Source: Methylobacter marinus A45 (GTDB lineage Bacteria > Pseudomonadota > Gammaproteobacteria > Methylococcales > Methylomonadaceae). From it: a stretch of DNA of 64,000 nucleotides. The stretch is from contig NZ_KB912877.1 in assembly GCF_000383855.1 (NCBI RefSeq), positions 3,948,728 to 4,012,727 of the forward strand. The letters run 5' to 3'. Below the pieces are notes generated by a model. The model saw nothing but the letters and a program-made list of their open reading frames with translations. It did no database searches and was not told the origin of the DNA. Position numbers and translations under genes: made by a program. Positions 183 through 35,929 of the stretch are shown here, one piece after another (position 1 is the first letter of the stretch; the number at the start of each line of letters is the position of its first letter).

Positions 183-2072
183 ATGTGCGGGATTGTCGGT
201 ATTTTCGATATCAATGGCAAACGGGAAATCAACCGCGAGTTGTTGTCGCGCATGAACGAAAGCCAGTTTCACCGCGGGCCGGACGAAGGCGGGATACATA
301 TCGAAAGCGGCCTGGGTTTCGGACACCGGCGCCTGTCGATTATCGACTTGTCCAGCGGACAGCAGCCCATGGTCAGCCGGGACGGCAGCGTCGTCCTGAC
401 CTATAACGGCGAGATATTCAATTTTCTTGACTTAAGAAAGGCGCTGGAAGGGCAGGGCTATCGCTTTCAGACCCATTGCGACACCGAAGTCATTCTGTAT
501 GCCTGGCAAGCCTGGGGCGAGGCCTGCGTGGAGCGGTTCCGCGGCATGTTCGCCTTCGCGCTGTGGGACAGAAACCGGCAAACGCTGTTTCTGGCGCGGG
601 ACCGGCTGGGCGTCAAGCCGCTGTTTTACGCGCCGCTGGCTGATGGCCAGTTCATTTTCGCTTCCGAACTGAAAGCCCTGAAAGCGCATCCGGAGTTTCC
701 GAAAACATTGGATGCCAGCGCCATCGAAGATTATTTCGGCTTCGGCTATGTGCCTGATCCCAAGACCATCTATAAAGAGGTTTATAAGCTCGAGCCTGGC
801 TATTGCTTAACGCTGAAACGGGGCGCCGGTCTGTGTCAGCCCCGGCAATACTGGGATGTCGACTTTACCGTTCGGCCGGGGCAGAACGAAAAAGCCGCCG
901 GCGATGAACTCATCGAGCGGCTGCGCGAAGCGGTCAATATCCGCATGATGGCCGACGTGCCGCTGGGCGCGTTTCTGTCGGGCGGCGTCGACTCAAGCGC
1001 CGTCGTGGCCATGATGGCCGGCTTGTCGGCCGACCCGGTCAACACCTGTTCCATCTCGTTCGGCGACCCGGCCTTCAACGAATCGCAGTTCGCGGCGGAA
1101 GTCGCCGAGCGCTACCGCACGGCGCACCGGGTTGAGCAGGTCGACCCGGACGATTTCAGTCTGATAGACCGATTGGCCGGCCTTTATGACGAACCCTACG
1201 CGGACAGTTCGGCCTTGCCGACCTACCGCGTCTGCGAACTGGCGAAAAAACAGGTGACCGTGGTGCTGTCGGGCGACGGCGGCGATGAAAACCTGGCCGG
1301 CTACCGGCGCTATCGCTGGCATACGTATGAAGACCGCATGCGCTCCTATTTGCCCGATGCGATCAGAAAGCCCGTATTCGGCCTGTTAGGGGCGGCTTAC
1401 CCGAAAGCCGACTGGGCGCCCAAGGTTTTCAGGGCCAAATCGACCCTGGAATCCATCGCCCGCGATTCGATGGAAGGCTATTTTCACAGCGTTTCCATTC
1501 TTTCCAACGCCCTGCGCGGGCAGCTGTTCAGCAAGCAATTGAAGCAGGATCTGCAGGGCTACCAGGCGGTCGATGTGTTCAGGCGCTATGTCGACAAGGC
1601 ACCGGCCGACAACCCGCTGTCGCTGGTGCAGTATCTGGATATCAAAACCTATCTGCCCGGCGATATCCTGACTAAAGTCGACCGGGCCAGCATGGCCCAT
1701 GCCCTGGAAGTCAGAGTGCCGTTGCTGGACCATCAATTGGTCGAATGGATGGCGGGGCTGCAGCCGGACATGAAACTCAACGGGCGCGACGGCAAATACA
1801 TTTTCAAGAAATCGTTGGAACATTATTTGTCCGACAATATTCTGTACCGGCCGAAAATGGGGTTTGCCGTGCCTTTATCGGCATGGTTCAAAGGCCCTTT
1901 GAAGCAGCGGGTGCGGGATGCCTTGCTGGGGCCGGCCATGACCGAAAGCGGTTATTTCAACCACGATGTCCTGCGCAAAATCGTGGACCAGCATCAGTCC
2001 GGGTTACGGGATTACAGCGCGCCGATCTGGAGTTTGCTGATGTTTGATGCCTTCCTGCGGCAGAATGCATGA
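183..2072 (+). CDS. XrtA/PEP-CTERM system amidotransferase (asparagine synthetase-like)
   Basis: This 629-residue protein is a class II glutamine amidotransferase fused to an asparagine synthetase domain. It begins MCGIVGIF, so Cys2 is in place as the glutaminase nucleophile after removal of Met1, and the PP-loop ATP-binding motif SGGVDSS lies near residue 265. The expected reaction is ATP-dependent transfer of ammonia from glutamine to a carboxylate. In exosortase A loci this family (TIGR03108-like) is thought to amidate a sugar acid or another cell-surface precursor; that role is inferred. Length and N-terminus match the family. It lies between the glycosyltransferase tail and the HPr-rel-A genes, all on the same strand. 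Confidence 0.9.
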   Translation: MCGIVGIFDINGKREINRELLSRMNESQFHRGPDEGGIHIESGLGFGHRRLSIIDLSSGQQPMVSRDGSVVLTYNGEIFNFLDLRKALEGQGYRFQTHCDTEVILYAWQAWGEACVERFRGMFAFALWDRNRQTLFLARDRLGVKPLFYAPLADGQFIFASELKALKAHPEFPKTLDASAIEDYFGFGYVPDPKTIYKEVYKLEPGYCLTLKRGAGLCQPRQYWDVDFTVRPGQNEKAAGDELIERLREAVNIRMMADVPLGAFLSGGVDSSAVVAMMAGLSADPVNTCSISFGDPAFNESQFAAEVAERYRTAHRVEQVDPDDFSLIDRLAGLYDEPYADSSALPTYRVCELAKKQVTVVLSGDGGDENLAGYRRYRWHTYEDRMRSYLPDAIRKPVFGLLGAAYPKADWAPKVFRAKSTLESIARDSMEGYFHSVSILSNALRGQLFSKQLKQDLQGYQAVDVFRRYVDKAPADNPLSLVQYLDIKTYLPGDILTKVDRASMAHALEVRVPLLDHQLVEWMAGLQPDMKLNGRDGKYIFKKSLEHYLSDNILYRPKMGFAVPLSAWFKGPLKQRVRDALLGPAMTESGYFNHDVLRKIVDQHQSGLRDYSAPIWSLLMFDAFLRQNA

Positions 2073-2133
2073 TGCGCATGCGGATGACGGGGAATTAATG
2101 GCTTGTTTGTTATTAACGCAATGAGGTTTTCCT

Positions 2134-2877
2134 ATGGATACTGAATCAAAGAATCAAACCCAGGATCGGCGGACGCCTCAGGGCAAAGCGAAACACGTTG
2201 ACAAGTCCCGGCGAGCTTTCACGCGGGCAGGCATGGCGGCGCCGGTGTTTTTAACGCTGGCAAGCCGGCCTGTCCTGGGGGCGCAGTGCCTGTCGCAGAT
2301 GATGTCGGGGAATGTCTCCCAGATTGGCGATGGCAGTTGTGAACCGGGATTTGGCATCGAAACCTGGTCCAATCCCAATGCGCCGCTGCTTGGCTCCGAT
2401 GTGGTTGCGCGCAAGGTTGGCCTCGGTAGAGGATTATTTCAATGGCATGAGGACACAGGCTTTTCCCTGGCGCGCGTATTCGGAACCGAACAAGGAAGAG
2501 AGGTATTTCAATGGGCCGGAAAACGACGCTTTATCTTCGGCAAATTCAAGGCGAAGCCAGACCAGTCGACGCCCGACAAACCCGACGATTATACCGGCGG
2601 CACGAAGTTCAATGAGGTGTTTCCGGCTTTCGGCCGCTTCGATGCAAATTATGGCCTGACCAGACGCTCGATTACAATGCGCGAAATTCTGCATGAAGAG
2701 CCGGCTTCCATAAAAGCCCATTTCGTGGCCGCCATGTTGAACGCGCAATACGTGCCCAATTATGTGCTGACCGCCAGGCAGGTGCTGGAGCTCTGGTCCG
2801 GCATGTCTCCGATGGCCGTAACCATTACTAATATTAATGAATTTCTTGAGTCCACCTGGCGCTGGCGGTTCGGGTGA
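2134..2877 (+). CDS. Hypothetical protein with Tat-like leader, HPr-rel-A module
   Basis: This 247-residue protein belongs to no enzyme family I can name. Residues 1-25 are polar and charged. They are followed by SRRAFTRAGMAAPVF, a twin-arginine-like start of a hydrophobic segment that runs to about ARPVLGA-type residues near 50. Just after it comes a Cys- and Ser-containing stretch (QCLSQMMSGN, then GDGSC). The remainder is soluble-looking, with a proline-rich middle and a helical C-terminus. The stop lies next to or inside the start of the PqqD-like gene, so the two are translationally linked. I infer that it may be the substrate or secreted partner of the kinase module; nothing in the sequence proves this. 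Confidence 0.6.
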   Translation: MDTESKNQTQDRRTPQGKAKHVDKSRRAFTRAGMAAPVFLTLASRPVLGAQCLSQMMSGNVSQIGDGSCEPGFGIETWSNPNAPLLGSDVVARKVGLGRGLFQWHEDTGFSLARVFGTEQGREVFQWAGKRRFIFGKFKAKPDQSTPDKPDDYTGGTKFNEVFPAFGRFDANYGLTRRSITMREILHEEPASIKAHFVAAMLNAQYVPNYVLTARQVLELWSGMSPMAVTITNINEFLESTWRWRFG

Positions 2878-2890
2878 TCAGCCCGGCGCC

Positions 2891-3181
2891 ATGCGGCAGG
2901 AGCCTGTAATCCGCATACCCGATAACGGCAGGCTGCTTTATCGGTGCTGGGGTGATGAATATGTCTTTTACCATCCGGCAACAGGTGATACGCATCTGTT
3001 CGACCAGGCGAGTGCGGACCTGATTCTGGCGGTATCGGCGCAGCCCCTTTCGCGGGCCGCATTACTGAAGAGGCTGGCGGCCTCGCTCAAGTCATTGACT
3101 GACCAGGAAATTGAACAGTTTCTCGATGAACTGCTCATGAAGTGCGGGCAGTCGGGTTTGCTGGAAGTCGGGGAAGGCTAA
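2891..3181 (+). CDS. PqqD-family peptide chaperone, HPr-rel-A system
   Basis: From ATG 2891 this encodes 96 residues. A longer form from ATG 2837 would overlap the previous gene by about 40 bp and add a Gly/Pro-rich tail unlike the family. The fold signature is that of PqqD-like proteins: short beta strands around RLLYRCWGDEYVFYHP, then THLFDQASADLIL, then helices ending QFLDELLMKCGQSGLLE. PqqD-like domains (RiPP recognition elements) bind leader peptides and present them to modifying enzymes. Only 4 bp separate it from the HprK-like kinase, the usual arrangement of the HPr-rel-A system (TIGR04353/TIGR04352-like). Confidence 0.8.
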   Translation: MRQEPVIRIPDNGRLLYRCWGDEYVFYHPATGDTHLFDQASADLILAVSAQPLSRAALLKRLAASLKSLTDQEIEQFLDELLMKCGQSGLLEVGEG

Positions 3182-3185
3182 TCAC

Positions 3186-4094
3186 TTGAAACTTTCATGC
3201 TTGTCTGAATCCGAATTAAGGCGGTGTTTATCTTCAGCCGGAGGGCTTAAGATAAAAATCGGGCGTTTCAACGTCTGTTTATCCTCATCAATCCGTGAAG
3301 TGAGTGAACATCTGCGCCGTTTGTACAAGGATTTTGAATTAATTTCAGACCCTGATTTCTGTGATTTTCATGTGGCATTGATGCCGCCTTTCGGCGTGCG
3401 GCGCTATGTGCGGCCGCAGGTCAATTTTTCATTCGATGGCGAATATCCCTTCAAACCGCTACCTTACGGGCAGGCCGGCGCCCTGTTCGAATGGGGGCTT
3501 AACTGGTGTATTGCCCGGCACGCCAACCAATACCTGATTATTCATGCCGCGGTCGTGGCGAAGGACAGCCGGGCCCTGGTATTGGCGGGCACGCCGGGAA
3601 GCGGAAAAAGCACGCTGTGCGCGGCGCTGGTCTGTGAAGGATGGCGGCTGCTTTCCGATGAAATGGCCTTGCTGTCGGTCGATGACGGCGGACTCTATCC
3701 GGTTCCCCGGCCGATCAGCCTGAAAAACCGGTCGCTGGAGGTCATCAGCGCTTTTTCTCCGGATTCGGTCATGGGGCCTGTGGTACGGGACACGGCAAAA
3801 GGCACCGTCGGTCATATGCGGCCGCCGCTACAGAGCGTTGAACTGGGTGAGCGGCCCGCAAGGCCCGCGCAGCTGGTTTTTCCACGCTACAAAGAGCGCT
3901 CAGGCACGAAGTTAACGAGCCTGAGCAAAGGCCGGGCCTTGCTTCGCGCGGCGGAAAACAGTTTCAACTACAGCGTCTTGGGCACTCATGGCTTTAATAG
4001 CCTGGCACGGTTGATCGATGACAGCGACTGCCATGAATTCCAGTATAGCCGACTGGACGAAGCGATAGCCGTCTTTACGGAGCTGGCGACTTGA
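3186..4094 (+). CDS. HprK-related kinase A
   Basis: This 302-residue protein is related to the kinase domain of HPr kinase/phosphorylase. The P-loop AGTPGSGKST ends around Lys141-Ser142 and is preceded by a conserved His near 120 (LIIHAAVV). A second acidic motif, LLSDEM, follows at about 156-160, the position used for metal and acceptor binding in HprK. No HPr or other PTS gene is nearby, so sugar-PTS regulation is unlikely. A Ser/Thr of a peptide or protein partner is the more likely acceptor. Translation starts at TTG 3186; no in-frame ATG is available close by. The stop overlaps the TTG start of the next gene. Confidence 0.85.
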   Translation: MKLSCLSESELRRCLSSAGGLKIKIGRFNVCLSSSIREVSEHLRRLYKDFELISDPDFCDFHVALMPPFGVRRYVRPQVNFSFDGEYPFKPLPYGQAGALFEWGLNWCIARHANQYLIIHAAVVAKDSRALVLAGTPGSGKSTLCAALVCEGWRLLSDEMALLSVDDGGLYPVPRPISLKNRSLEVISAFSPDSVMGPVVRDTAKGTVGHMRPPLQSVELGERPARPAQLVFPRYKERSGTKLTSLSKGRALLRAAENSFNYSVLGTHGFNSLARLIDDSDCHEFQYSRLDEAIAVFTELAT

Positions 4095-5164
4095 CGGCCG
4101 GGCCGCTGATCCGCCAGGCCTTCATTGAGCCTGAAAGCGTGCTCGGCTTCAGCCTGTCCGAGTGGGACCTGCTGATCCGGCAGGCGCGCCGGGCCAATGT
4201 GCTGGCCCGCTTGAGTCATTTACTGGATAGCCGGCGGTTGCTGGAGCGGGTGCCGGACAGGCCTGGCGCGCATTTGAGGGCTGCCCGCATCCATGCCGAA
4301 CGCTTCAGGCATTCCCTGCATTGGGAACTGGCTTGTATCGAGAGCGCGTTGCAGGCCCTCGATGTGCCTTTGATCCTGCTGAAGGGAACGGCTTACGCTC
4401 TGGCGGAAAACCAGGCGGCCAGGGGACGGCTGTTTTCCGATATTGACCTGATGGTGCCGGAAGCCCGCTTGCCGGAGGTCGAGCAGGCCTTGATCAGTGC
4501 CGGCTGGATGGCCGGCACGTTTGATGCCTACGATCAGAAATATTACCGCCAGTGGATGCATGAGATACCGCCGCTGCGCCATCTGAAACGCCAGACATCG
4601 CTTGACGTGCACCATAACATCTTGCCCAAGACCTGCAAGTCGTGTCCCGACGCCGATAAACTGTTCGAAAATTCGGTAGGGATTCCGGGCAAGAATTTCC
4701 GGGTTTTCGCGCCTGAAGACCGGGTATTGCACAGCGCCGCGCATTTGTTTCACGAAGGTGAGCTGAATCATGGTTTTCGGGATATATCCGATATAGATTT
4801 ATTGTTGAGGGAATTCTCGAAAACCGACGGTTTCTGGCAGAAACTGCTGCGGCGCTCGGTTGAGCTCAACCAGCAGCGGGCGTTGTTTTATGCCTGCCGC
4901 TATGCGGACAAAATACTGGCCACGCCGGTGCCGGCTGACGTGCAAACGGTACTGGAACGGCAAGCTCCCGCCAGGACCCGGCTGATGGATTTTCTGTTCG
5001 TCAGAGCCTTGATGCCGAACCATGCCAGCTGTAATGACCGATGGACGGGATTGGCGCGGTGGCTGCTGTTCGTCCGCTCCCATTGGCTGAGAATGCCTGT
5101 TTATTTACTGGTGCCGCACCTGCTGCGAAAGGGATATAAACGTTTGGCGGGAGAAAGGCTGTAG
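4091..5164 (+). CDS. Nucleotidyltransferase-family protein (HPr-rel-A module)
   Basis: This 357-residue protein matches the uncharacterised nucleotidyltransferase family (NTP_transf_5-like). The key features are LLKGTAYAL near residue 97 followed by FSDIDLMVPE, the GS-x-D-x-D type metal site of the pol-beta nucleotidyltransferase fold, and a helical C-terminal half with HLFHEGELNHGFRDISDIDLLL. It starts at TTG 4091, overlapping the kinase stop by 4 bp, so the two are coupled. In some lasso-peptide clusters a kinase and a protein of this family act one after the other on a peptide. That analogy, not direct evidence, suggests it modifies the kinase product. Confidence 0.8.
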   Translation: MTAGPLIRQAFIEPESVLGFSLSEWDLLIRQARRANVLARLSHLLDSRRLLERVPDRPGAHLRAARIHAERFRHSLHWELACIESALQALDVPLILLKGTAYALAENQAARGRLFSDIDLMVPEARLPEVEQALISAGWMAGTFDAYDQKYYRQWMHEIPPLRHLKRQTSLDVHHNILPKTCKSCPDADKLFENSVGIPGKNFRVFAPEDRVLHSAAHLFHEGELNHGFRDISDIDLLLREFSKTDGFWQKLLRRSVELNQQRALFYACRYADKILATPVPADVQTVLERQAPARTRLMDFLFVRALMPNHASCNDRWTGLARWLLFVRSHWLRMPVYLLVPHLLRKGYKRLAGERL

Positions 5165-5270
5165 ACCGGATTGTTAAAGCCGGCATTTCAAGCCGCCCAA
5201 GCGGGTTTCCGCCAAAGCTCCAGTCTGCCTGCACATGACTTTGAAATTTTCGTGGTGACTAAAAATTAAG

Positions 5271-6476
5271 ATGAGAATCCTGCATATCCTCGATCATTCG
5301 ATTCCACTGCACAGCGGCTATACGTTCCGCACCAAGGCCATATTGGAGCAGCAACGCAAACTGGGCTGGGAGACATTTCATCTTACCTCCGCCAAGCATC
5401 GCGTTGCCATCGCGCCGATCGAAGAGGTGGAGGGCCTCAGGTTTTACCGTTCCGGCCGGCCGGCCGAATGGCTCAAGAAAATGCCGGTCCTTGATCAATG
5501 GGCGATAATACGATCCCTGTCGCGAAGGCTTGAGGAAATCATCCCGCAAATCAAGCCCGACCTCCTGCACGTCCATTCGCCCGCCTTGAACGGCCTGGCC
5601 GCCCTGAACGCCGCGAAAACACACAAGCTCCCGTTGGTCTACGAATGCCGCGCCTTCTGGGAGGACGCAGCCGTCGACCATGGCACGACCCGCGAGGGCA
5701 GCGCCCGCTATCGCCTGACCAAAGCCCTGGAAACCCACGTGTTCAGGCAGGCCGATGCGATCACGACCATTTGCGAAGGCCTGCGTTCGGATATCGCCGG
5801 CCGCGGGATTGCCCCGGACAAAATCACCGTCATTCCCAATGCCGTCGACATAGAACGCTTCACCGCAGGCGTGGAGCCGGACCAGATTCTCAGAGCCCGC
5901 CTGGGTCTGCATAACAAAACCGTGCTCGGCTTTATCGGCTCATTCTATGCTTACGAAGGCTTGCCGTTATTGCTCGAGGCCTTGCCGATGATATTGGCCA
6001 GAGAGCCGGAAACCCGCTTGTTGCTGGTCGGCGGCGGGCCGCAGGAACAGCTGATCAGGCAGAAAACGCGCGACTTGGGGCTGGAGCAACAGGTGATCCT
6101 CACGGGCCGCGTGCCGCATGACCAGGTGGAAGACTATTACAATCAGGTCAGTATCTTTGTCTATCCGCGTTTATCGATGCGCCTGACCGATCTGGTGACG
6201 CCGCTGAAACCGCTGGAAGCCATGGCGCAGGGCAAGCTGGTCGTCGCTTCCGATGTCGGCGGGCATAAGGAATTGATACAGGACAAGAAAACGGGCTGGC
6301 TGTTTAAAGCCGGGGATGCCGCGGCGCTGGCGGCGTCCATAATCAATTTGCTGGACAATAAAGCGCAGTGGCAGGATCTTCGCCGGGAGGCGCGGCGGTT
6401 TGTCGAGCAGGAGCGGACCTGGGCGAAAAGCGTCGGCCATTATCAGGACGTATTTTCCCGATTAAGCCCGCCATGA
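5271..6476 (+). CDS. GT4 glycosyltransferase, exosortase A-associated (Daro_2409 type)
   Basis: This 401-residue GT-B fold transferase opens with MRILHILDHSIPLHSGYTFR, characteristic of the exosortase A-associated GT4 family (TIGR04063-like). The acceptor-binding N-terminal half is followed by VIPNAVDIERF at about 190, FIGSFYAYEGL at the hinge, and the nucleotide-sugar site LVTPLKPLEAMAQGKLVVASDVGG near 310. It probably adds a sugar to the lipid-linked exopolysaccharide repeat at the cytoplasmic membrane face. The TGA stop overlaps the next ATG (ATGA), so translation is coupled to the following glycosyltransferase. Donor sugar is unknown. Confidence 0.9.
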   Translation: MRILHILDHSIPLHSGYTFRTKAILEQQRKLGWETFHLTSAKHRVAIAPIEEVEGLRFYRSGRPAEWLKKMPVLDQWAIIRSLSRRLEEIIPQIKPDLLHVHSPALNGLAALNAAKTHKLPLVYECRAFWEDAAVDHGTTREGSARYRLTKALETHVFRQADAITTICEGLRSDIAGRGIAPDKITVIPNAVDIERFTAGVEPDQILRARLGLHNKTVLGFIGSFYAYEGLPLLLEALPMILAREPETRLLLVGGGPQEQLIRQKTRDLGLEQQVILTGRVPHDQVEDYYNQVSIFVYPRLSMRLTDLVTPLKPLEAMAQGKLVVASDVGGHKELIQDKKTGWLFKAGDAAALAASIINLLDNKAQWQDLRREARRFVEQERTWAKSVGHYQDVFSRLSPP

Positions 6477-7588
6477 TGCGCAAAGAGCATACGCTGCATG
6501 TCGGACTGGTCGGCCCCATGCCGCCGCCCTATGGCGGCATGGCCAATCAGACGCAGCAGCTGCACCGGCTGCTGTCGCGGGAAGGCCTGCAAGTGAGTCT
6601 GGTGCGGACCAACGCGCCTTATGGCGCGAAATGGATCGAAAAGCTCCGGGGCGTCAGGGCGCTGTTTCGCCTGCTGCCCTATCTGGTCAGGTTGTGGCGG
6701 CTGGCCGGCCAGGTCGACGTCATGCATGTGCTGGCGAATTCGGGCTGGTCCTGGCAACTGTTCGCGACGCCGGCCTTATGGATAGGCTGGCTCAGGAGCA
6801 CGCCGGTCATCATCAATTACCGCGGCGGAGAAGCCCGGCGCTATTTCAACCAGTCCATGCGCTGGGTCCGTCCCTCGATCAGGAAAGCCGCCGCGGTCGT
6901 CGTGCCCTCCGGTTACCTGAAGCAGGTGTTTGCCGATTTCGGCATAGAAGCGCGGGTGATCCCCAATATCATCGATTTGCAGCGTTTTGTTGCGGCGGAA
7001 AAAGACCGGCGCCTCAATGCCGACAGCCCGAAACTGGTCATAACGCGTAATCTCGAAGCCATCTACGGCATAGCGACGGCCATTGAAGCGCTGGCGCTGC
7101 TGCGCCGGACAGTGCCCGGCATCACTTTGACGATCGCCGGCAGCGGCCCTGAAAAAGCCGCGTTGCAGCAGCTGGTGGCAGCGGAAAACCTGGAGCGCAA
7201 CGTGGTGTTCACGGGCAAGCTGACGCCGGACGAAATCGCCCGGCTATACCGGCAGGCCGACATCATGCTCAATCCCACCACCGTCGACAACATGCCCAAT
7301 TCCGTGCTCGAAGCCATGGCCTGCGGCGTGGCCGTGGTGACGACCAGCGTCGGCGGCATCCCTTATGTTGTCGAGCATGACAGGACGGCGTTATTTGCCG
7401 AGGCCGGCAATGCCGGCTCGATGGCGGAACAGATCCGCCGGCTGCTGAATGAGCCCGGGCTTTATCAGGCGCTGATCGAAAACGGACAGCGGGAAGTCAG
7501 GCAATACGCCTGGCCGGAGGTTAAAAACCTGTGGCTGGATTTATACCAATCGTCGAGGAGAAGCGGATGGATTTTTATACGCGGCTGA
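6473..7588 (+). CDS. GT4 glycosyltransferase
   Basis: I place the start at ATG 6473 (MMRKEHTLHVGLVG), which overlaps the upstream stop as ATGA. A longer open frame back to 6368 only reads through the previous gene. The protein has 371 residues. The N-terminal Rossmann fold shows GPMPPPYGGMANQ, a typical GT4 glycine-rich loop, and the C-terminal half has VIPNIIDLQRF, IAGSGPEKAAL and NSVLEAMACGVAVVTT, the E-x7-E nucleotide-sugar site. It probably adds one sugar in the exopolysaccharide pathway. It overlaps the CapK-like gene by 22 bp. Confidence 0.85.
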   Translation: MMRKEHTLHVGLVGPMPPPYGGMANQTQQLHRLLSREGLQVSLVRTNAPYGAKWIEKLRGVRALFRLLPYLVRLWRLAGQVDVMHVLANSGWSWQLFATPALWIGWLRSTPVIINYRGGEARRYFNQSMRWVRPSIRKAAAVVVPSGYLKQVFADFGIEARVIPNIIDLQRFVAAEKDRRLNADSPKLVITRNLEAIYGIATAIEALALLRRTVPGITLTIAGSGPEKAALQQLVAAENLERNVVFTGKLTPDEIARLYRQADIMLNPTTVDNMPNSVLEAMACGVAVVTTSVGGIPYVVEHDRTALFAEAGNAGSMAEQIRRLLNEPGLYQALIENGQREVRQYAWPEVKNLWLDLYQSSRRSGWIFIRG

Positions 7589-8916
7589 CAGCCAATGTGA
7601 TTTTTCCCCTGCACGAGCGGCTCAAGCGGCACACGACCGTCGACGTGCACAGGGACATGGAGCGGACGCAGTGGCTGGCGCCGGAACCGCTCCGGGAACT
7701 GCGGCTACAGAATTTAAAACGCTTCCTGAGCGACGTCGAGCGGCATGTGCCTTATTACCGGCAGCTGTTTCGCAGACTCGGCTTCGTGCCGGCCGAGCTG
7801 GATTCGCTGGCCGATCTGCGCCGGCTGCCCCTGATGGGAAAGCCGGACATCCGCGCCCATACCGAGGCGTTAAAAGCCGACAACGCCGTGGGGCTGTCGC
7901 GGTTCAATACCGGCGGCTCCAGCGGCGAGCCGTTGATTTTCCATATCGGCAAACAAAGGGTCAGCCACGATGTCGCGGCAAAGTGGCGGGCCACGCGCTG
8001 GTGGGGGGTCGATATCGGCGATCCGGAAATGGTGATCTGGGGCTCGCCGATAGAGCTCGGGGCACAGGACAGGATCAAGCTGATCCGTGACCAGCTGTTG
8101 CGCACGCGTTTGTTGCCGGCCTTTGAAATGTCGCCGGCCAAGCTCGACGGTTTTATCCGCGACATCCGCACCCGGCGGCCGCGCATGCTGTTCGGCTATC
8201 CGTCGGCGCTGGCGCATATTGCCGACCATGCCGGCAAAACCGGTGAAAAACTCGACGATTTAGGGATTAAAGTGGCTTTCGTGACCTCCGAGCGGCTGTA
8301 CGACCATCAGCGCGAGAAAATCGAGACCGCGTTCGGCTGTCCCGTCGCCAACGGTTACGGCGGGCGCGATGCCGGCTTTATTGCCCATCAATGCCCGGCC
8401 GGCGGCATGCACATCACGGCCGAGGACATCATCGTGGAAATCATCGACAGGGATGGCCGGGTGTTGCCGAACGGGCAGGCCGGGGAAATCGTGGTCACGC
8501 ATCTGGCCACGCGCGATTTCCCGTTCATACGCTACCGGACCGGCGATGTCGGCGTGCTGGGCGATGAGCTTTGCCCGTGCGGAAGGGGCTTGCCGTTGCT
8601 GCGGGAAATCCAGGGGCGCGCGACCGATTTCGTGATCGCCCAGGATGGCACGGTGCTGCACGGATTGGCGCTGATTTACGTGCTGCGCGATTTGCCGGGG
8701 ATTGCCTCTTTCAAGATCATACAGAACAGCCCTGACAGCACGACGGTCCAGATCGTCCGGAACCGGGGTTACCGGCCCGATGCCGAAGCGATCATCGCGC
8801 GTGAATTCAAAAAACGCCTGGGCGCGGGAGTCAGCGTCGGCATAGAGTACCACGATGAAATTGCCAGGGAAAAATCCGGCAAGTACCGCTATGTCGTCAG
8901 CCATGTCGCGCCATGA
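7567..8916 (+). CDS. CapK/phenylacetate-CoA ligase-like adenylate-forming enzyme
   Basis: From ATG 7567, preceded by GAGGAG at the right distance, this encodes 449 residues. It belongs to the adenylate-forming superfamily, CapK/PaaK branch. The phosphate loop FNTGGSSGEPL is near 120, NGYGGRDAG near 262, and the hinge region with RYRTGDVG near 325. A cysteine pair around DELCPCGRGLP resembles the metal-binding knuckle seen in several PaaK-like proteins. Such enzymes activate a carboxylic acid as acyl-AMP and often acyl-CoA. Members in capsule and exopolysaccharide loci are thought to support polymer acylation or amidation. The substrate cannot be read from sequence. It ends 4 bp from the convergent gene. 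Confidence 0.8.
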   Translation: MDFYTRLTANVIFPLHERLKRHTTVDVHRDMERTQWLAPEPLRELRLQNLKRFLSDVERHVPYYRQLFRRLGFVPAELDSLADLRRLPLMGKPDIRAHTEALKADNAVGLSRFNTGGSSGEPLIFHIGKQRVSHDVAAKWRATRWWGVDIGDPEMVIWGSPIELGAQDRIKLIRDQLLRTRLLPAFEMSPAKLDGFIRDIRTRRPRMLFGYPSALAHIADHAGKTGEKLDDLGIKVAFVTSERLYDHQREKIETAFGCPVANGYGGRDAGFIAHQCPAGGMHITAEDIIVEIIDRDGRVLPNGQAGEIVVTHLATRDFPFIRYRTGDVGVLGDELCPCGRGLPLLREIQGRATDFVIAQDGTVLHGLALIYVLRDLPGIASFKIIQNSPDSTTVQIVRNRGYRPDAEAIIAREFKKRLGAGVSVGIEYHDEIAREKSGKYRYVVSHVAP

Positions 8917-8920
8917 GCCT

Positions 8921-10744
8921 TTACTGGTTATGTGAAATCAGCCACTGCTCCAGCATCATCAGGATCCAGATCATCACGCCGTAATAGGCGGCATGGCCTT
9001 GTTGCTGCGCCTTGATGATGGTCTTGATGTAGTCCGGATGGATGATGCCCCGGTTCGCCATGCCGCGCAGATTCACGTCGGCGAATTCCCGAAGTCCCGG
9101 ATCGGCGCTCATCCAGAGGCCGAACGGCAGGCCGAAGCCATGCTTGCTTTTGCTCAGGGTTTCCGGCGCCAGAAAGCCGGCCATCGATTTCCGGTAAAAA
9201 GAACGCAACTGAAAGCGCTGCATCAGCAAGCCGGAGGGGATGCTGGCGGCGAATTCCACCAGATTGTCCTGCAGCAGCGGATAGTGCACGCCGACGCCGG
9301 CCAGGTCGCACATGCGGTTCACCTTGCGCAGGTCGTTATCGGCCAAGGTGATTTTGGCGTCCAGAAACAGCATTTGCTTGACCAGGTCATCGGTGCCGGC
9401 GCGGTCGTAAGTCCGCTGCAGACTGGCCAGCGGCGCCGAGGCATCGACCTGGGCCAGGAAATCGGCGGTGAAAATATCGGCGAGCGGCGTCCGGTGCAGA
9501 AAATTATAGGTTTCCATGCGCGCGGGCATGGTGATTCCGGCCTGTTCGATATAGCTTCTGACCTTGCCAAGCAGCGGGGTGATTTGGGCGACCGGTTCGA
9601 TGAGGCCGCTTTTGAGCGCCAGCGGCACATGGCGGTACAGGTCGAACAGTTTTTGCTTGGCGTAGCGGGTGTTGCCGGCGAATATCTCGTCGCCGCCATC
9701 GCCGGCCAACAGTTGCCGCATGCCATGCTCGCGGGCGAATCGGGCGCAGTAATAGGCCGGGATCGCCGAGGCATTGCCGAACGGTTCATCATAGGTCCGC
9801 GCGATCAACGGAATCGCCTGGAGCACGTCCGCGGGCGTGACATAGTATTCGTGCAGGTTGACCTTGAAATGCCGGGCCGTGGCGCGGGCGTAGGCCATTT
9901 CATCGTAGCCTTCGGCATCGAAACCGATGGCAAACGCGTCGATCGGGTCGGACGATAATGTCTGGTACACGCCGGTCACGGTGCTGCTGTCCAGACCGCC
10001 GCTCAGGAAGGCGCCGGTGTGGCTATCCGGGGCGCAGGCTGAGACGGATCGGGTCAACTGGTCGTGCAGTTGCGCGCGCAGGTCCTTTTCCGGATCGGGG
10101 CTGTCGGCGTAGCTGATTTGCCAGTAAAAATCGCGCTGGATATGCCCGTCGTTGAATTCGACGAACTCGCCGGGCTGCAGTTTGGAAACGCCGGCATAGA
10201 TGCTGCCAGGGCTCGGAATCATGTGAAAATACAAATAATCGAAGATCGCCTGCGGATCGAGGCCGGTTTGAACGCCAGGGTGCGCGATGATGTGATCAAG
10301 CTGCGAACCGAATACCAGCAAGTCTTTCCGGGCATAAAAAGCCAGCGGCCGGATGCCGAACCGGTCATTCGCCAGCAAGGCGTAATGCCGTCCGGGCTCC
10401 GACACATAGCAGGCAAAGGCCCCGCGTATCCTGCCTAGCACCGCACGTCCGTGACGCTGGAAGCCCTCGGCCAGCGCCTGGGCCGGGCCATGGCGTTCGG
10501 CAATCCCGGCCAGCGCGCTGTCCTGCCAGCGCGGCGAGCCTTCGATCATTGCCAGTAATGACTCCGATTGGTAAATACATGGCGCCACGGTGGAGCCGTG
10601 GCCGGCGATCTCGGTAGCCGGCCGCAGGCAGGAAACCTGCTGGGCGTTTGCGGTTAAACAGGGGTCAGCCGCTCGCTGGGCGTTGATCGCGCGCGCCAAG
10701 CCGTTGGTGTTCGTTGTTGACAGCCAGCCGTAAATAGAGCTCAT
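8921..10744 (-). CDS. Asparagine synthetase-like protein lacking Cys2
   Basis: This 607-residue protein has the full asparagine synthetase architecture: an N-terminal Ntn-hydrolase-like domain, and a synthetase domain with PP-loop FLSGGLDSSTV near 250 and AGDGGDEIFAGN near 365. It begins MSSIYGW, so the catalytic Cys2 of glutaminases is replaced by Ser. It therefore may use free ammonia or another amine, or, like lasso cyclases and beta-lactam synthetase, activate a carboxylate for an intramolecular amide. It is clearly a paralogue of the amidotransferase at 183-2072 but much diverged. It is convergent with the CapK-like gene and heads no obvious tight operon. Confidence 0.85.
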   Translation of the reverse strand: MSSIYGWLSTTNTNGLARAINAQRAADPCLTANAQQVSCLRPATEIAGHGSTVAPCIYQSESLLAMIEGSPRWQDSALAGIAERHGPAQALAEGFQRHGRAVLGRIRGAFACYVSEPGRHYALLANDRFGIRPLAFYARKDLLVFGSQLDHIIAHPGVQTGLDPQAIFDYLYFHMIPSPGSIYAGVSKLQPGEFVEFNDGHIQRDFYWQISYADSPDPEKDLRAQLHDQLTRSVSACAPDSHTGAFLSGGLDSSTVTGVYQTLSSDPIDAFAIGFDAEGYDEMAYARATARHFKVNLHEYYVTPADVLQAIPLIARTYDEPFGNASAIPAYYCARFAREHGMRQLLAGDGGDEIFAGNTRYAKQKLFDLYRHVPLALKSGLIEPVAQITPLLGKVRSYIEQAGITMPARMETYNFLHRTPLADIFTADFLAQVDASAPLASLQRTYDRAGTDDLVKQMLFLDAKITLADNDLRKVNRMCDLAGVGVHYPLLQDNLVEFAASIPSGLLMQRFQLRSFYRKSMAGFLAPETLSKSKHGFGLPFGLWMSADPGLREFADVNLRGMANRGIIHPDYIKTIIKAQQQGHAAYYGVMIWILMMLEQWLISHNQ

Positions 10745-10793
10745 CGTAGGTCCCGCCGTGAATTTTAATGTTGGATTGAACTAAAGGTCTGTT

Positions 10794-11564
10794 TCAGGGC
10801 TGCCGAAGGATTCTTCTTAAAAAGGGAAAGAGTCTGGCGTCTTCTTCAGCAACGGGCTCATCGATTTTCAGGGCTTTTCTGAAAATTTTGGAAATCAGCT
10901 TGTTCGATGTGGTAAGCCGGCGGCTTTTCACGTGTTTCTGGATCAACGGGCCTATGGATTCATTGCAGAAATGAAAGATCACGGCATTGTGATCGATATT
11001 ATCCTCAAAGGACTCACGAGGGGACAGCAATTTGGCGATGGCATTGCCGGGGATTTCGTCCAGGGTCCATTTGGGCCATTGAAAATAATCGTAGTCTTTT
11101 CCGTATTTGGCCAGCAGCTCATTGCCGATGCCGTTCCATTGAAAATCGCTGCAATTTTCATCCAGGACCTGGTCTTGCGCTTCGATGACATTTTTTAACA
11201 ATGCGCAGCCGGGACGGGCGATAAAACAGCCGATGCTCTGGCCGATATCCTGGCAGGCATAATCATAGCAATCGGGAAAATCGAATAACGGCTCGATGCT
11301 GTCCAGGGCCGCCATGTCGCAATCGATCCACATGCCGCCATAGGCATAAACCAGCCGGGTTCTGACATAGTCGGCTTTGTGGGCGGCCTTTTTTAGCCGG
11401 TGCCATTCGGGGCGCAAATCGGGTATGTATTGATTGATGCTGTCCTGATCCAGTAAGTTGAGCCGCAGATTGCCTTTATGAGTCATGATGCTTTGTATGC
11501 ACAAATTGATATACTCCGGCCTGGTTTTGCCCATGTTTTCCCAATACATCCAGATATCTTTCAT
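10794..11564 (-). CDS. GT32-type glycosyltransferase (capsular polysaccharide synthesis)
   Basis: This 256-residue protein carries the DXD glycosyltransferase signature of the GT32/Caps_synth group: KADYVRTRLVYAYGGMWID followed by CDM, with the aspartates of WIDCD coordinating the metal-nucleotide sugar. The N-terminus MKDIWMYWENMG is typical of these small cytoplasmic enzymes. Near residue 190 there is an HN/VIFHF segment of the acceptor lobe. It likely adds a hexose to a surface glycan intermediate. It lies 50 bp upstream of the Cys-less asparagine synthetase gene on the same strand and may be cotranscribed with it. Confidence 0.85.
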   Translation of the reverse strand: MKDIWMYWENMGKTRPEYINLCIQSIMTHKGNLRLNLLDQDSINQYIPDLRPEWHRLKKAAHKADYVRTRLVYAYGGMWIDCDMAALDSIEPLFDFPDCYDYACQDIGQSIGCFIARPGCALLKNVIEAQDQVLDENCSDFQWNGIGNELLAKYGKDYDYFQWPKWTLDEIPGNAIAKLLSPRESFEDNIDHNAVIFHFCNESIGPLIQKHVKSRRLTTSNKLISKIFRKALKIDEPVAEEDARLFPFLRRILRQP

Positions 11565-11594
11565 AGTATCCCCTTGGTAAAAAAATCAGTGACC

Positions 11595-11815
11595 CTTAAC
11601 CTGAATATTTCACCACGAAGGACACGAACGCCTCCAGGGATGGAGGCGGTAGAATTGCGTCTGGAACGGCAATCGAGCACACGAAGGCTTTTCAATTCAA
11701 TTACTTGCAAATATTTCATAATGAGCTCATGAAGTTATCTGTGAGAAATGATAATGCCATGATTTTCTTCGTGTTCTTCGTGTTCTCTGTGGTTTCATGA
11801 AATATCCGGGTTAAC
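11595..11815. repeat. Small inverted-repeat element (about 220 bp)
   Basis: The left end (11595-11627) carries CTTAACCTGAATATTTCACC and then CACGAAGGACACGAA. The right end (11767-11815), read on the other strand, gives GTTAACCCGGATATTTCATG and then ACACGAAGAACACGAA. The ends are thus imperfect terminal inverted repeats about 35-45 bp long, and the short interior codes for nothing visible. This looks like a non-autonomous, MITE-like dispersed repeat filling the gap between two minus-strand genes. Copy number elsewhere in the genome is not visible here. Confidence 0.6.
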
Positions 11816-11856
11816 CATTGACAGACTTATTTGGCTTGCTAGTCAGACGTCGGTTT

Positions 11857-12708
11857 TTATCCCCGCAGCGGATGCCGGGGCTGTTCAGGCATCACCCGGG
11901 CGGAGCCGGGCGTATATGCCGGGACGGGCGTTTTCCTGCCGATCATTAACACCGGCATTAACAAGAGGCTGCCCGTCAACAACAGCATCAGGCTGATTAA
12001 CAGCTTGGGTTCGTCCAGAAAATGCGGCCTGCGGATATTCCTGGGTTCAATGCCGGCTTTTTTTAAGCCGTCGGCGATAAACCGTAAAAAACCATTTTTA
12101 TTCCAATTGATGGTCGTGGCGTACTGGTAGGATTCCTGTTCCCTTTTATAGAAAGCGATCTTGTTCGATGGCCCCCGTAATCGGATTAATTCATCCAGCC
12201 TGTCAGGTAAAATCGCCGGGTTGTCCCGTAAGTCTTGCAAGCCATAGAATCCGTTAGCCGGGTTCGGGAAAACAAGATCGAAAACAGGGTCGGCAACCGC
12301 TTTCAGTTGTTTGTTACGCACCTCAAGGGTAGTGTGAGTCGGCGTTTTATTGTCCGCGTCATATAACATGACCAGTGTGGAATCCACGTCGATCGAGTCG
12401 AGCATGGCCATCAGCAAGCGGGATTTATCGGAGCAATCGCCGCCCCGCTCCAGAACCTGGATGGGCGTGGGACCAAGCGACTTGAACAGGAAAAAGTCGT
12501 GATTTTTCCTGAAGCCCTGATTTTGATAAACCCAATGATTGATGGCGGCAAATAAATGCGGCGAATGCTCCTTACCAATTTGAGACTGTATGACTGATTT
12601 CAGGTATGCCAGATCGTTTTTATAGCTCAGGTAACAAACCGATGAACCAATGAAGCAAATCAACGATAAGCAAGCGAATGTGTTGAAACATAGGCGTCGA
12701 AAATTCAT
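11857..12708 (-). CDS. Membrane-anchored transglutaminase-like protein
   Basis: This 283-residue protein has an N-terminal transmembrane helix (about 9-30), a transglutaminase-like core and a second hydrophobic helix near 235-258 followed by a Pro/Arg-rich tail. The likely catalytic triad is visible: RGGDCSDKSRLL (Cys92), THTTLEV (His125) and VADPVFD (Asp140). Such proteins may be cysteine proteases or amide-transfer enzymes acting outside the cytoplasm. It stands between the inverted-repeat element and the O-ligase-like gene. Its substrate is unknown, though processing or cross-linking of a surface protein would fit the location. Confidence 0.75.
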   Translation of the reverse strand: MNFRRLCFNTFACLSLICFIGSSVCYLSYKNDLAYLKSVIQSQIGKEHSPHLFAAINHWVYQNQGFRKNHDFFLFKSLGPTPIQVLERGGDCSDKSRLLMAMLDSIDVDSTLVMLYDADNKTPTHTTLEVRNKQLKAVADPVFDLVFPNPANGFYGLQDLRDNPAILPDRLDELIRLRGPSNKIAFYKREQESYQYATTINWNKNGFLRFIADGLKKAGIEPRNIRRPHFLDEPKLLISLMLLLTGSLLLMPVLMIGRKTPVPAYTPGSARVMPEQPRHPLRG

Positions 12709-12833
12709 AGTAAACTCTAGGTCCGTTGATAACGCACTGTTTAAGAGAAAATCCTAAAACGTATTGTTCTACATGCCTTTTATTTACAGTTTATTGATAA
12801 TGACCATAAGCGGCGCAGACCGGTTATGGATAC

Positions 12834-14093
12834 TCACGTGCTCTGAGGCACGCCCAGGGGAAACCTGACGGTTTCTTCCTGCTTGCTTGCCAATTCCTCC
12901 AGGGCAAATTTTTTAACCAGCACGGTGATAAAGATCAGATGGTAGAGAAAATCGAAATAAGCGAGCCCTAAAAAAGCGCCGCCGACCATAAAACAGAGCA
13001 AGGATGCGCGTATCATGTAGCAGTAATTCGCTACCCATTCCATGCCTTCGACATGGCGCGTTTTGCGCGGCAGCAAGGTCAAGGTTATTAAAGTGCCCAG
13101 GATGAGCGCCAGCCAAAGGCCGAAAGCGATAAAGCCATGTTCGGAGAACATCTCGACATAGGAACTGTGCCAGTCGCGTTCGGTGAGATAGATCCAGCCA
13201 TCGAATCCAGTGCCGGTAAAAGGATGGTCGAGCGTATGATTCCAGCCATCCTTCCAGACAATGATTCTACCCATTGCCGAGGCATCCTGATTATAGGTTT
13301 CAAGGGTTTGCATGCGGCTGAACCACTCTTCAGGCAAATAATCCTTAACGAAAAAAGCCCCGATCATCATCATGGGAACCACAAGGTACTTGCGCCGGCT
13401 ATGCCAGATCAATATGAAGCCCAGGGCGACCAGGGACAGCAGGGCGCCGCGCGACCAGGAACTCAACGAAGCGGTATAGATGAAGGGAATTGCCATGTAG
13501 ATTCCCAGTTTAATCCAGCGGTTCGCCGTTTCTCTGCGCCAGATCAACAACAGCGGCACTGTCATCAGTACGGCCAGGGCAAATAAATTATTCTCTTCGA
13601 ACTGAGTGGAGGGCGGACCGTAAACGCGATAGGAAAAACGGGTCAAAATAGCGAAGATGCCGCCTTTGACCGCAACCAGGGCAATGGAAGCGCCGATAGT
13701 CACGATTAGGTAATACAACTTTTGGCGCGTATTGATAAGAATCAGGGTAAAAATGAACGGCAGGTAGATTTTCGTGATAACCCAGAATCGACTCCAGGCA
13801 ATATCGGGCAAGTAGGCCTGCCAGGAGCTGATAATGTAATAAAACCAGAGCATCAGGAATACGGGAATACGCCAGTCCCTGGGAAGGGGTTGCTTATCCT
13901 TGGTCAGAAAGGCGCTGACCGAGACCACCAAAAAAAGCACATAATAAACCGGCAGGCTTCTGACAAATCCCCAGGCATAAGCATGAGGATTTAAATAGCT
14001 GAAAATGGCAAGCGATAAAACGCCCCACCATGGCTTTTTCAGGGCGGCGACAATACAGCCGGTTAAGAATATGAGTACGACGATATCACGCAT
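12834..14093 (-). CDS. O-glycosylation ligase, exosortase A-associated (O-antigen ligase-like)
   Basis: This 419-residue polytopic membrane protein has about ten hydrophobic segments. It starts MRDIVVLIFLTGCIVAAL and then LSYLNPHAYAWGF-like residues, typical of the exosortase-associated probable O-glycosylation ligase (TIGR03097-like). A large periplasmic loop contains GRIIVWKDGWNHTLDHPFTG and SSYVEMFSEHGFIAFG, the WaaL/Wzy_C pattern with a conserved His. It should transfer lipid-linked glycan to a protein or lipid acceptor, or polymerise it, at the periplasmic side. It is transcribed upstream of the transglutaminase-like gene. Confidence 0.88.
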   Translation of the reverse strand: MRDIVVLIFLTGCIVAALKKPWWGVLSLAIFSYLNPHAYAWGFVRSLPVYYVLFLVVSVSAFLTKDKQPLPRDWRIPVFLMLWFYYIISSWQAYLPDIAWSRFWVITKIYLPFIFTLILINTRQKLYYLIVTIGASIALVAVKGGIFAILTRFSYRVYGPPSTQFEENNLFALAVLMTVPLLLIWRRETANRWIKLGIYMAIPFIYTASLSSWSRGALLSLVALGFILIWHSRRKYLVVPMMMIGAFFVKDYLPEEWFSRMQTLETYNQDASAMGRIIVWKDGWNHTLDHPFTGTGFDGWIYLTERDWHSSYVEMFSEHGFIAFGLWLALILGTLITLTLLPRKTRHVEGMEWVANYCYMIRASLLCFMVGGAFLGLAYFDFLYHLIFITVLVKKFALEELASKQEETVRFPLGVPQST

Positions 14094-14164
14094 AATCGTT
14101 ATAGGGTTTTAAATGTTACGGAGCATCGGATTCATAAAATGCCATCATCTAATAAAGTCATTCG

Positions 14165-35045: not shown

Positions 35046-35134
35046 TTTATCGGCATTTTTCATGATGACTTGTGTGATGGTTGCGGAAAACGCCGAATAA
35101 TCGATTGTTATGTATTAACCATGGAGCCGTTGTT

Positions 35135-35929
35135 ATGAAAGTATTAATGCATGGTTTATTGAGAAATTTAAATTTTAAATGGCTTTTAGTGCTACTGCCT
35201 TTCATGGCGGATATCGGCCGTGCCGATCAGGTATTGGCCAATACCCTGGAAAAGATAAAACCGGGAATCGTGGCAGTGGGCACATACATGCCCAAACGCA
35301 ATCCCAGGGCGGTTTTTTTTGGGACAGGGTTCGCCGTGGGCGACGGTAGCGTGATTGTGACTAATGCCCATGTGATACCGCCGAAACTGGATGCCGAGCA
35401 CCTGGAACAGTTAGCGGTTTTTTTCCGCCGGGGCGGTGCCAGTAAAGCGGTGCTTGCCAGAGAACTGGCGTTAGATAAGGACCATGACCTGGCCATTTTA
35501 AAATTATCCGAAGGTCAGCTGCCGCCGGTCAAATTAGGTGACGTTTCATCGGTGCGGGAAGGGCAGCTTTATGCGTTTACCGGCTATCCCATCGGTATGA
35601 TCCTGGGGCTTTATCCCGTGACGCATCGCGGCATCATTTCCGCCATCAGTCCGGTCGTTATTCCGATGCTGAAGTCGGAACAGTTGAATGCCAAGCTGCT
35701 CAAGCGGTTAAAGGAGCCGTATGATGTATTTCAATTGGATGCGACGGCTTATCCCGGAAACAGCGGCAGCCCGCTATACGATATTGATACGGGAGAGGTT
35801 ATCGGCGTCATCAATAAAGTCTTTGTCCAGGAGAGCAAAGAAAATGTCTTGTCGAAGCCTAGCGGCATTACGTACGCCATTCCCGTGAATTATGTTGAAA
35901 TTCTTATGAAAAGCAAAGTAATGAATTGA
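35135..35929 (+). CDS. Trypsin-like serine protease (S1C type), exported
   Basis: I choose ATG 35135, with GGAG 12 bp before it; the frame extends upstream to 35081 without a start signal. The 264-residue protein starts with a hydrophobic signal-like segment (about 14-29, ending IGRADQ). The catalytic triad is visible as TNAHV (His79), DKDHDLAIL (Asp118) and PGNSGSPLYD (Ser210), with no PDZ domain. Proteases of this type act in the periplasm. Its place beside VanZ-like and EpsB genes suggests a role in surface-protein or exopolysaccharide-complex processing, but no substrate is evident. Confidence 0.85.
   Translation: MKVLMHGLLRNLNFKWLLVLLPFMADIGRADQVLANTLEKIKPGIVAVGTYMPKRNPRAVFFGTGFAVGDGSVIVTNAHVIPPKLDAEHLEQLAVFFRRGGASKAVLARELALDKDHDLAILKLSEGQLPPVKLGDVSSVREGQLYAFTGYPIGMILGLYPVTHRGIISAISPVVIPMLKSEQLNAKLLKRLKEPYDVFQLDATAYPGNSGSPLYDIDTGEVIGVINKVFVQESKENVLSKPSGITYAIPVNYVEILMKSKVMN

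Follow-up and report, generated by a model that had tools for sequence, protein, structure and literature searches.

Four consecutive genes on the plus strand, near the beginning of the 64,000-nucleotide stretch of the Methylobacter marinus A45 genome analysed here (the window), encode a 247-aa leader-bearing protein, a PqqD-type protein, an HprK-related kinase A and a PF14907 nucleotidyltransferase. We consider it probable that this module is a protein-tailoring system of Pseudomonadota, of the type known from paeninodin and from the linear polyphosphorylated peptides (LPP). By analogy with these systems, a recognition element of ribosomally synthesised and post-translationally modified peptides (the RiPP recognition element, RRE) would guide the kinase to a conserved serine of the leader-bearing protein, hereafter the cargo, before its export, and the leader would double as a twin-arginine translocation (Tat) signal. 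A first-pass annotation of this DNA had suggested that the module phosphorylates and then further modifies a larger exported protein. This idea stands, with two amendments: the constant element is the leader rather than the protein, and a precedent, LPP, was published in 2026 for another phylum. The features of the module are as follows.

2134..2877, plus strand: class A cargo (precursor) of 247 aa, without Pfam or NCBIfam family, described from an alignment of 60 members and an AlphaFold2 model; a twin-arginine leader at the N-terminus is followed by the Cys-Ser-Ser-Gly-Asn-x-Ser junction and by a domain without recognised fold
2209..2283, plus strand: conserved leader from Arg26 to Ala50, RRxFxKxGxxxxPVxxTLxSRPxxGA, proposed docking site of the PqqD protein and export signal of Tat type, as read from the motif
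2293..2295, plus strand: Ser54, first-choice candidate phospho-acceptor
2305..2307, plus strand: Ser58 of the SGNxS motif, second candidate acceptor, from its conservation in the alignments
2891..3181, plus strand (longest open reading frame, ORF, from 2837): PqqD_rel_X, a discrete RRE according to TIGR04353, the predicted fold and structural matches
3186..4094, plus strand: HprK-related kinase A, according to TIGR04352, an alignment of 48 sequences and matches to HPr kinases in the PDB
4091..5164, plus strand: PF14907 nucleotidyltransferase-family protein, according to its Pfam match and the residues kept in an alignment of 170

The four gene families named by the first-pass annotation were recovered in these places, and three of the products exceeded the curated cut-offs: the PqqD protein matched TIGR04353 with 47.2 bits (cut-off 35) and the kinase TIGR04352 with 397.4 bits (cut-off 200) in NCBIfam, and the nucleotidyltransferase matched PF14907 with 192 (cut-off 31.2) in Pfam. 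By these cut-offs the kinase and the PqqD protein are members of the HPr-rel-A system. NCBIfam release 20.0 names this pair, and none of its models matched the leader protein of the window. The overlapping or near-overlapping gene starts also reported in the first pass were retained in part. The kinase and nucleotidyltransferase genes do overlap by 4 nt (4091–4094). The 41-nt overlap between the leader gene and the PqqD gene, which holds only for an ORF start at 2837, is probably a start-codon artefact: the ATG at 2891, which gives a 96-aa protein starting 13 nt past the stop of the first gene, is favoured because relatives of the PqqD protein are mostly 80–105 aa long (among listed ORFs of 75–135 aa). 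The distance from the leader gene to the PqqD ORF lay between −60 and +100 nt in 140 of 161 loci.

In the class-level sample, 41 of 369 genomes had a kinase scoring above the cut-off, and in the phylum-level sample 61 of 398 (four kinase genomes being common to both samples), yet library scans gave no model for its substrate. With the window included, 201 kinase loci were fetched: 40 class-level, 57 phylum-level, 23 family-level (chosen by a leader protein in the same family) and 80 from GTDB (chosen by the kinase). They represented 188 distinct kinases, the loci L121–L148 duplicating L149 onward and being excluded from all counts. A leader-bearing gene was present at the module in 176 of the 188 loci. 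A data-derived leader profile located it on the kinase strand, upstream of the kinase, in 163; the adjustments given below brought this number to 166, and inspection revealed it in 10 of the other 22 loci, eight times upstream of or overlapping an over-long kinase ORF and twice out of the usual place (on the opposite strand in L164, downstream in L281). Five of the remaining 12 loci ended at a contig edge and seven had no leader gene. The PqqD gene was detected in 172 and the nucleotidyltransferase gene in 171 of the 188 loci, the latter being oppositely oriented in six class B loci. On the strength of these per-gene counts the cargo, the RRE and the kinase form the core of the module and the nucleotidyltransferase is near-constant. 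Starting from the cargo instead, the kinase was found at the locus in all 25 examined of the 36 genomes matched (window, L088, L101–L120, L206–L208). Three loci showed particular arrangements. In L104, two class A cargo genes (8981–9568 and 10710–11273) lay in one module, with the PqqD match between them and not beside the kinase. In L120, a broken or interrupted module, the kinase and nucleotidyltransferase matches (10521–12088 and 12085–14610) were each divided over two ORFs, the nucleotidyltransferase parts being approximately 1.4 kb apart. In L281, two leader-profile matches (7071–8600) were downstream rather than upstream of the kinase.

The cargoes fell into three classes, A (118 loci), B (38) and C (9), which were unrelated apart from the common twin-arginine leader. 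The assignment covered 166 loci, after five matches below 12 bits had been dropped and eight class C loci added by pattern (nine were identified in this way, one of them already among the profile matches); six loci were moved by eye to class A and four to class B, and L192 was left unplaced. The first pass had regarded the 247-residue protein as the partner of the kinase, and had named its absence or unrelatedness in most kinase genomes as the finding that would speak against the module. A homologue of this protein was present in 118 of 165 loci, and a leader-bearing partner was consistently there. What did not survive is the protein itself as the common partner: since the 47 other loci with an unrelated cargo shared only the leader, it is the leader, and not the protein, that defines the substrate.

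The twin arginine was observed in 114/118 class A, 38/38 class B and 9/9 class C leaders. Mean pairwise identity was higher in the leader than in the cargo in class A (0.442 versus 0.270) and in class B (0.552 versus 0.288), with a smaller gap in the close-knit class C (0.747 versus 0.661). Between classes A and B the leaders were 0.355 identical, compared to 0.222 after shuffling, and the cargoes were at the shuffle level (0.228 versus 0.227). The order was reversed in a rough control with CopA, a Tat protein (leader 0.44, cargo 0.517), a small control in which 15 of 30 loci had a start resembling that of a Tat protein, at least three of the 15 being apparently wrong. A 28-position leader profile was also run against whole genomes. 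In 15 of 20 kinase-bearing genomes it gave a single match with E below 1e-4, which was the module gene. No match below E 0.0027 was seen in six control genomes (three without a cargo match and three without a kinase over the cut-off), and none below 0.0015 in 18 genomes possessing the protease described below and no kinase over the cut-off, where the best match, at E 0.00159, was the start of a CopA gene. The leader profile is thus system-specific in whole genomes. Its motif reads as a twin-arginine export signal of the Tat type.

Behind the leader the cargo extended mostly over 88 to 270 residues. In class A the leader was followed by a Cys (94%), a Ser (99%) and the motif Ser-Gly-Asn-x-Ser (first Ser 100%, last 92%), then by 120–272 more residues without recognised fold. 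Of all the columns in the 60-member alignment, only that of Ser54 of the window protein was invariant; Ser54 corresponded to alignment position S30, conserved in 99% of the 118; Ser58 corresponded to S34, conserved in 100% of the 118 and in at least 90% of the 60. From this conservation the phospho-acceptor of the window protein would be Ser54 or else Ser58. For the 247-aa protein, the scans returned no family, at E up to 0.1 in NCBIfam and up to 1 in Pfam; 60 class A relatives scanned singly against both libraries gave scattered weak or unrelated matches only. Class A cargoes may look "GYWKNH-like", a resemblance that does not come from a database match. The AlphaFold2 model of the window cargo had a mean predicted local distance difference test score (pLDDT) of 71.2, low in the leader, with means over 10-residue blocks of 66–95 at residues 71–80 and from 121 on. 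Compared to the PDB, its best Foldseek match was at E 6.5, which does not by itself make the fold a new one, and VIA gave no match with Z of at least 2 among the 37 chains compared. Class B cargoes were different and mostly shorter, ending in C-x-x-S-[FLIVM], a motif found within the last 22 residues in 34 of 38 (after shuffling, mean 0.5 and maximum 3). Class C was a third cargo type with the same kind of C-terminal tail in 9/9. A serine was also found 3–5 residues past the guessed cleavage site, at position 3 in 28/38 class B and at position 5 in 9/9 class C cargoes. The most peptide-like class B precursors were those of L084 (9032–9256) and L174 (upstream of its PqqD gene), with approximately 10–20 residues behind the leader, each closing with C-x-x-S-[FL] and a few further residues. 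A role of the cargo as exosortase (PEP-CTERM) substrate was considered and rejected, a PEP-like motif being present in the last 40 residues of 2/118 class A, 0/38 class B and 0/9 class C cargoes and absent from the window protein.

The PqqD protein is, by its predicted fold, a discrete RRE. The model (pLDDT 92.6) showed the winged-helix fold of these elements, and its best structural matches were leader-bound lasso B1 proteins: TbiB1 (Z 12.2, root-mean-square deviation 2.5 over 88 residues) and 6jx3 (Z 10.6, deviation 2.3 over 85 residues), compared to Z 8.8 for PqqD itself (5sxy). In the kinase, His120, the P-loop residues Gly138, Gly140, Lys141 and Thr143, and Asp158 and Glu159 were invariant in 48/48 sequences. 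His120, Lys141 and Asp158 may be the counterparts of residues in the His-Lys-Asp-Asp set of lasso kinases, the next residue being Glu159 in 48/48. The best PDB sequence matches of the kinase were HPr kinases (E 0.0013); for the nucleotidyltransferase and for the PqqD protein, no credible match was returned when the PDB was searched by sequence. Gly99, Asp117, Asp119 and Asp172 of the nucleotidyltransferase were kept in 100% of the ungapped rows of its alignment. A tree was made with 87 of 163 kinases, class A being thinned to 40. Class A was on one side of a branch (support 100/99), and so was class C (100/98); the three cargo labels required two changes, the minimum, compared to 34.7 when shuffled. 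Kinase and cargo class are inherited together.

A further gene of the window is probably connected with the module.

35081..35929, plus strand: trypsin-like serine protease, proposed accessory, according to PF13365, an N-terminal hydrophobic stretch and its co-occurrence with the kinase in genomes

Relatives of this protease were found near the module in 16/40 class-level, 6/57 phylum-level, 0/23 family-level and 10/80 GTDB loci, and 20 of the 32 module-linked proteases were upstream on the kinase strand (a few loci being the same genome twice). Among the 369 class-level genomes, it was present in 35 of the 41 that have the kinase and in 18 of the 328 that lack it (Fisher p 1.6e-29). With exosortase-bearing genomes only, the association persisted, at 33/38 and 13/89. 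Fisher tests ignore shared descent; the protease occurred in 22 of the 27 families covered by the kinase-bearing sample. It is likely that this protease is the fifth gene of the module, and the hydrophobic stretch suggests that it is probably secreted. An exosortase itself was present in 38/41 kinase genomes and in 89/328 others. In the window, the module is flanked on the left by an XrtA/PEP-CTERM amidotransferase and on the right by an XrtA glycosyltransferase (NCBIfam). An XrtA marker was present in the fetched DNA of 27/57 phylum-level and 13/23 family-level loci, and in only 5/40 class-level and 14/80 GTDB loci. The module as a fixed part of an XrtA polysaccharide locus was therefore rejected, despite the enrichment in exosortase genomes. 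An empty-site comparison with three genomes of the same genus gave no matching flank, as their nearest XrtA amidotransferase was 33–41% identical.

We propose the following pathway, in which every chemical step is inferred, as are the acceptor site, export by Tat and the role of the final product. The PqqD-type protein would bind the leader (RR...PVxxTLxSRP) of the new cargo and keep the cargo cytoplasmic. The HprK-related kinase would then phosphorylate, perhaps repeatedly, the conserved serine just past the leader, which in the window protein would be Ser54 or, failing that, Ser58. For classes B and C, phosphorylation could take place on the serine of the C-terminal CxxS[FLI]. The PF14907 enzyme would add a sugar or a nucleotide to the phosphate. 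That the cargo would be phosphorylated before export and the phosphate decorated is proposed because of the analogy with LPP and the phosphorylated lasso peptides. The modified and folded protein would exit by Tat, signal peptidase would cut off the leader, and the trypsin-like protease may trim the product outside the cell. Tat export suits a cargo needing modification and, in class A probably, folding in the cytoplasm. Because the leader appears to be a twin-arginine signal devoid of the motif [Y/W]xxP, the pathway could do without an exporter or a leader peptidase of its own. The product probably has its final role on the surface of cells that carry an exosortase.

Several observations weigh against this pathway. 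Seven of the 188 kinase loci (L166, L167, L173, L180, L190, L204 and L234) had no leader gene, and six of the seven also had no detected PqqD gene; the nucleotidyltransferase was absent from the fetched DNA of 17/188 loci, some of them ended by a contig edge. No strong leader-profile match was found in five of the 20 kinase-bearing genomes, those with class C, divergent or weakly matching leaders. The motif [Y/W]xxP, which is gripped by the RREs of lasso peptides and LPP, was present in 0/165 leaders, and in 3/165 within the stretch ahead of the leader. The h-region proline itself was present in 72/118 class A, 38/38 class B and 0/9 class C leaders. The Tat signal models matched class A members weakly, 2/60 in NCBIfam and 1/60 in Pfam; a further library scan with nine reference cargoes was similar, Tat models matching few members and weakly. 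No acceptor position was common to all classes, as the C-terminal CxxS of classes B and C was found in 0/118 class A cargoes. Finally, since the cargo classes partly follow taxonomy, common descent may by itself explain why kinase and cargo vary together.

It is possible, although unlikely, that the substrate of the kinase and the nucleotidyltransferase is a sugar, from which they would form first a sugar phosphate and next a nucleoside diphosphate sugar for the nearby exopolysaccharide, the leader protein being an ordinary Tat-exported surface protein. The position of the window module between two XrtA genes, the XrtA marker near phylum-level and family-level loci and the exosortase enrichment of kinase genomes would agree with such a role. 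The rarity of the marker in the class-level and GTDB neighbourhoods would not, and sugar activation has no evident use for an RRE that binds peptides or for a leader specific to this system; that the cargo type follows the kinase tree is a further argument against it. An equally improbable proposal keeps the protein as substrate and moves the acceptor to the C-terminal serine in classes B and C, class A having switched site or chemistry, so that there would be no single modification. This is the site used by the paeninodin kinase (PMC9266682), and the C-terminal motif far exceeded its shuffled frequency in class B; in L084 and L174 the precursors are hardly more than a leader and a tail. However, the junction serine, placed like Ser3 of LPP, is kept mostly in class B and always in class C, and class A is devoid of the C-terminal motif.

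Two other explanations were given much less credit. The kinase could be a regulator of the HPr kinase kind, with HPr or some other carrier as its substrate and with gene neighbours that are incidental. The family is indeed named for HPr kinase, and the best PDB sequence matches are of this type, but the match covers residues 117–170 only, and the kinase loci repeatedly show a compact operon that includes the RRE and the leader gene, which makes a regulator very unlikely. Hardly credible at all is a lasso-peptide cluster whose macrolactam step would have escaped recognition. Lasso cyclases belong to the asparagine-synthase superfamily, and homologues are present in the window at 183–2072 and 8921–10744, a relative of the former being near the module in 22/57 phylum-level and 9/23 family-level loci. 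However, the 183–2072 gene is an XrtA amidotransferase (1077 bits, cut-off 817), on which the lasso cyclase model remained far below its cut-off (259 versus 525); such a gene was near the module in only 1/40 class-level and 4/80 GTDB loci, and the cargoes are mostly too long, as given above. The lasso cluster was thus rejected, the module having no lasso cyclase of its own.

The closest known system is LPP (LppA, K, B, N, S and D), described in 2026 in Bacillota. These linear polyphosphorylated peptides are encoded in capsular loci and made with the RRE LppB, the HprK kinase LppK and the nucleoside triphosphate (NTP) transferase LppN, from a precursor whose N-terminus is conserved and whose C-terminus varies (PMC13381572). 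The kinase was shown to put one to four phosphates on core Ser3, and deletion of LppN gave no visible change (PMC13381572). The module of the window has the same four kinds of protein (discrete RRE, HprK-type kinase, NTP transferase and precursor), surroundings of surface-polysaccharide genes and, where LPP has its phosphoserine just past the leader, an invariant serine similarly placed. It differs in belonging to Pseudomonadota, in a cargo that in many cases is a protein exceeding 100 residues and in the linked trypsin-like protease. Neither a SipW-like leader peptidase nor an MsbA-like exporter was found among 11 window proteins (183–12708) searched with NCBIfam, Pfam or both. What is new relative to LPP is the leader, which reads as a twin-arginine signal without the YxxPxV or [Y/W]xxP motif.

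In phosphorylated lasso peptides, the kinase acts on the C-terminal serine of the precursor, and PsmN, a nucleotidyltransferase homologue, adds hexoses to the phosphorylated serine (PMC9266682). The kinase, the leader-binding B1 protein and the nucleotidyltransferase constitute the set of this source, which bears out the first-pass assignment to lasso-peptide tailoring families, and the C-terminal serine of classes B and C is reminiscent of the one used in paeninodin. Unlike paeninodin and pseudomycoidin, the module has no macrolactam cyclase of its own, class A has no lasso-sized core, and no B2 protease was recognised among the scanned window genes. An export signal peptide in the place of the usual RiPP leader is shared with the MNIO-modified bufferins and oxazolins; there the signal, whose use as RiPP leader is called highly unusual for the bufferins, is of the Sec and not of the Tat type, and the chemistry involves iron oxidases and cysteines (PMC12452194). 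The first-pass annotation had considered the product undescribed. Our literature search found no paper on this proteobacterial system and no case of a Tat signal used as RiPP leader; the claim holds to this extent, and does not hold for the logic, which is closely similar to that of LPP. To our knowledge, the bufferins and oxazolins have no kinase.

A bolder version, which we put forward tentatively and would rate at somewhat under even chances, is that of a new RiPP-type class in Pseudomonadota. The RRE would read a Tat signal peptide that serves as dock for the kinase and the nucleotidyltransferase and as a gate, releasing only the phosphorylated (or phosphoglycosylated) and folded protein to the Tat pore, for three unrelated cargo classes. 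Exported proteins of bacteria with an exosortase would then bear a decoration linked through phosphate. The main reading, if true, would already carry the logic of phosphopeptide RiPPs over from Bacillota to Pseudomonadota, and from peptides to exported proteins of larger size, and would provide a case of a Tat signal serving as RiPP leader. With a leader-bearing substrate, conserved serines and a likely fifth gene now named, the function becomes testable.

Other genes of the window were noted in passing. The gene at 8921–10744 is a second asparagine-synthase-like gene, below all the curated NCBIfam cut-offs, in a polysaccharide region. The same region contains, at 11857–12708, a weak transglutaminase-like match (PF01841, below cut-off). 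The exosortase at 41981–42856 was below the XrtA-specific cut-off (141 versus 208 bits) and above the general one (126 versus 106). The C-terminus of the protein encoded at 51782–52564 looks by eye like a PEP-CTERM tail.

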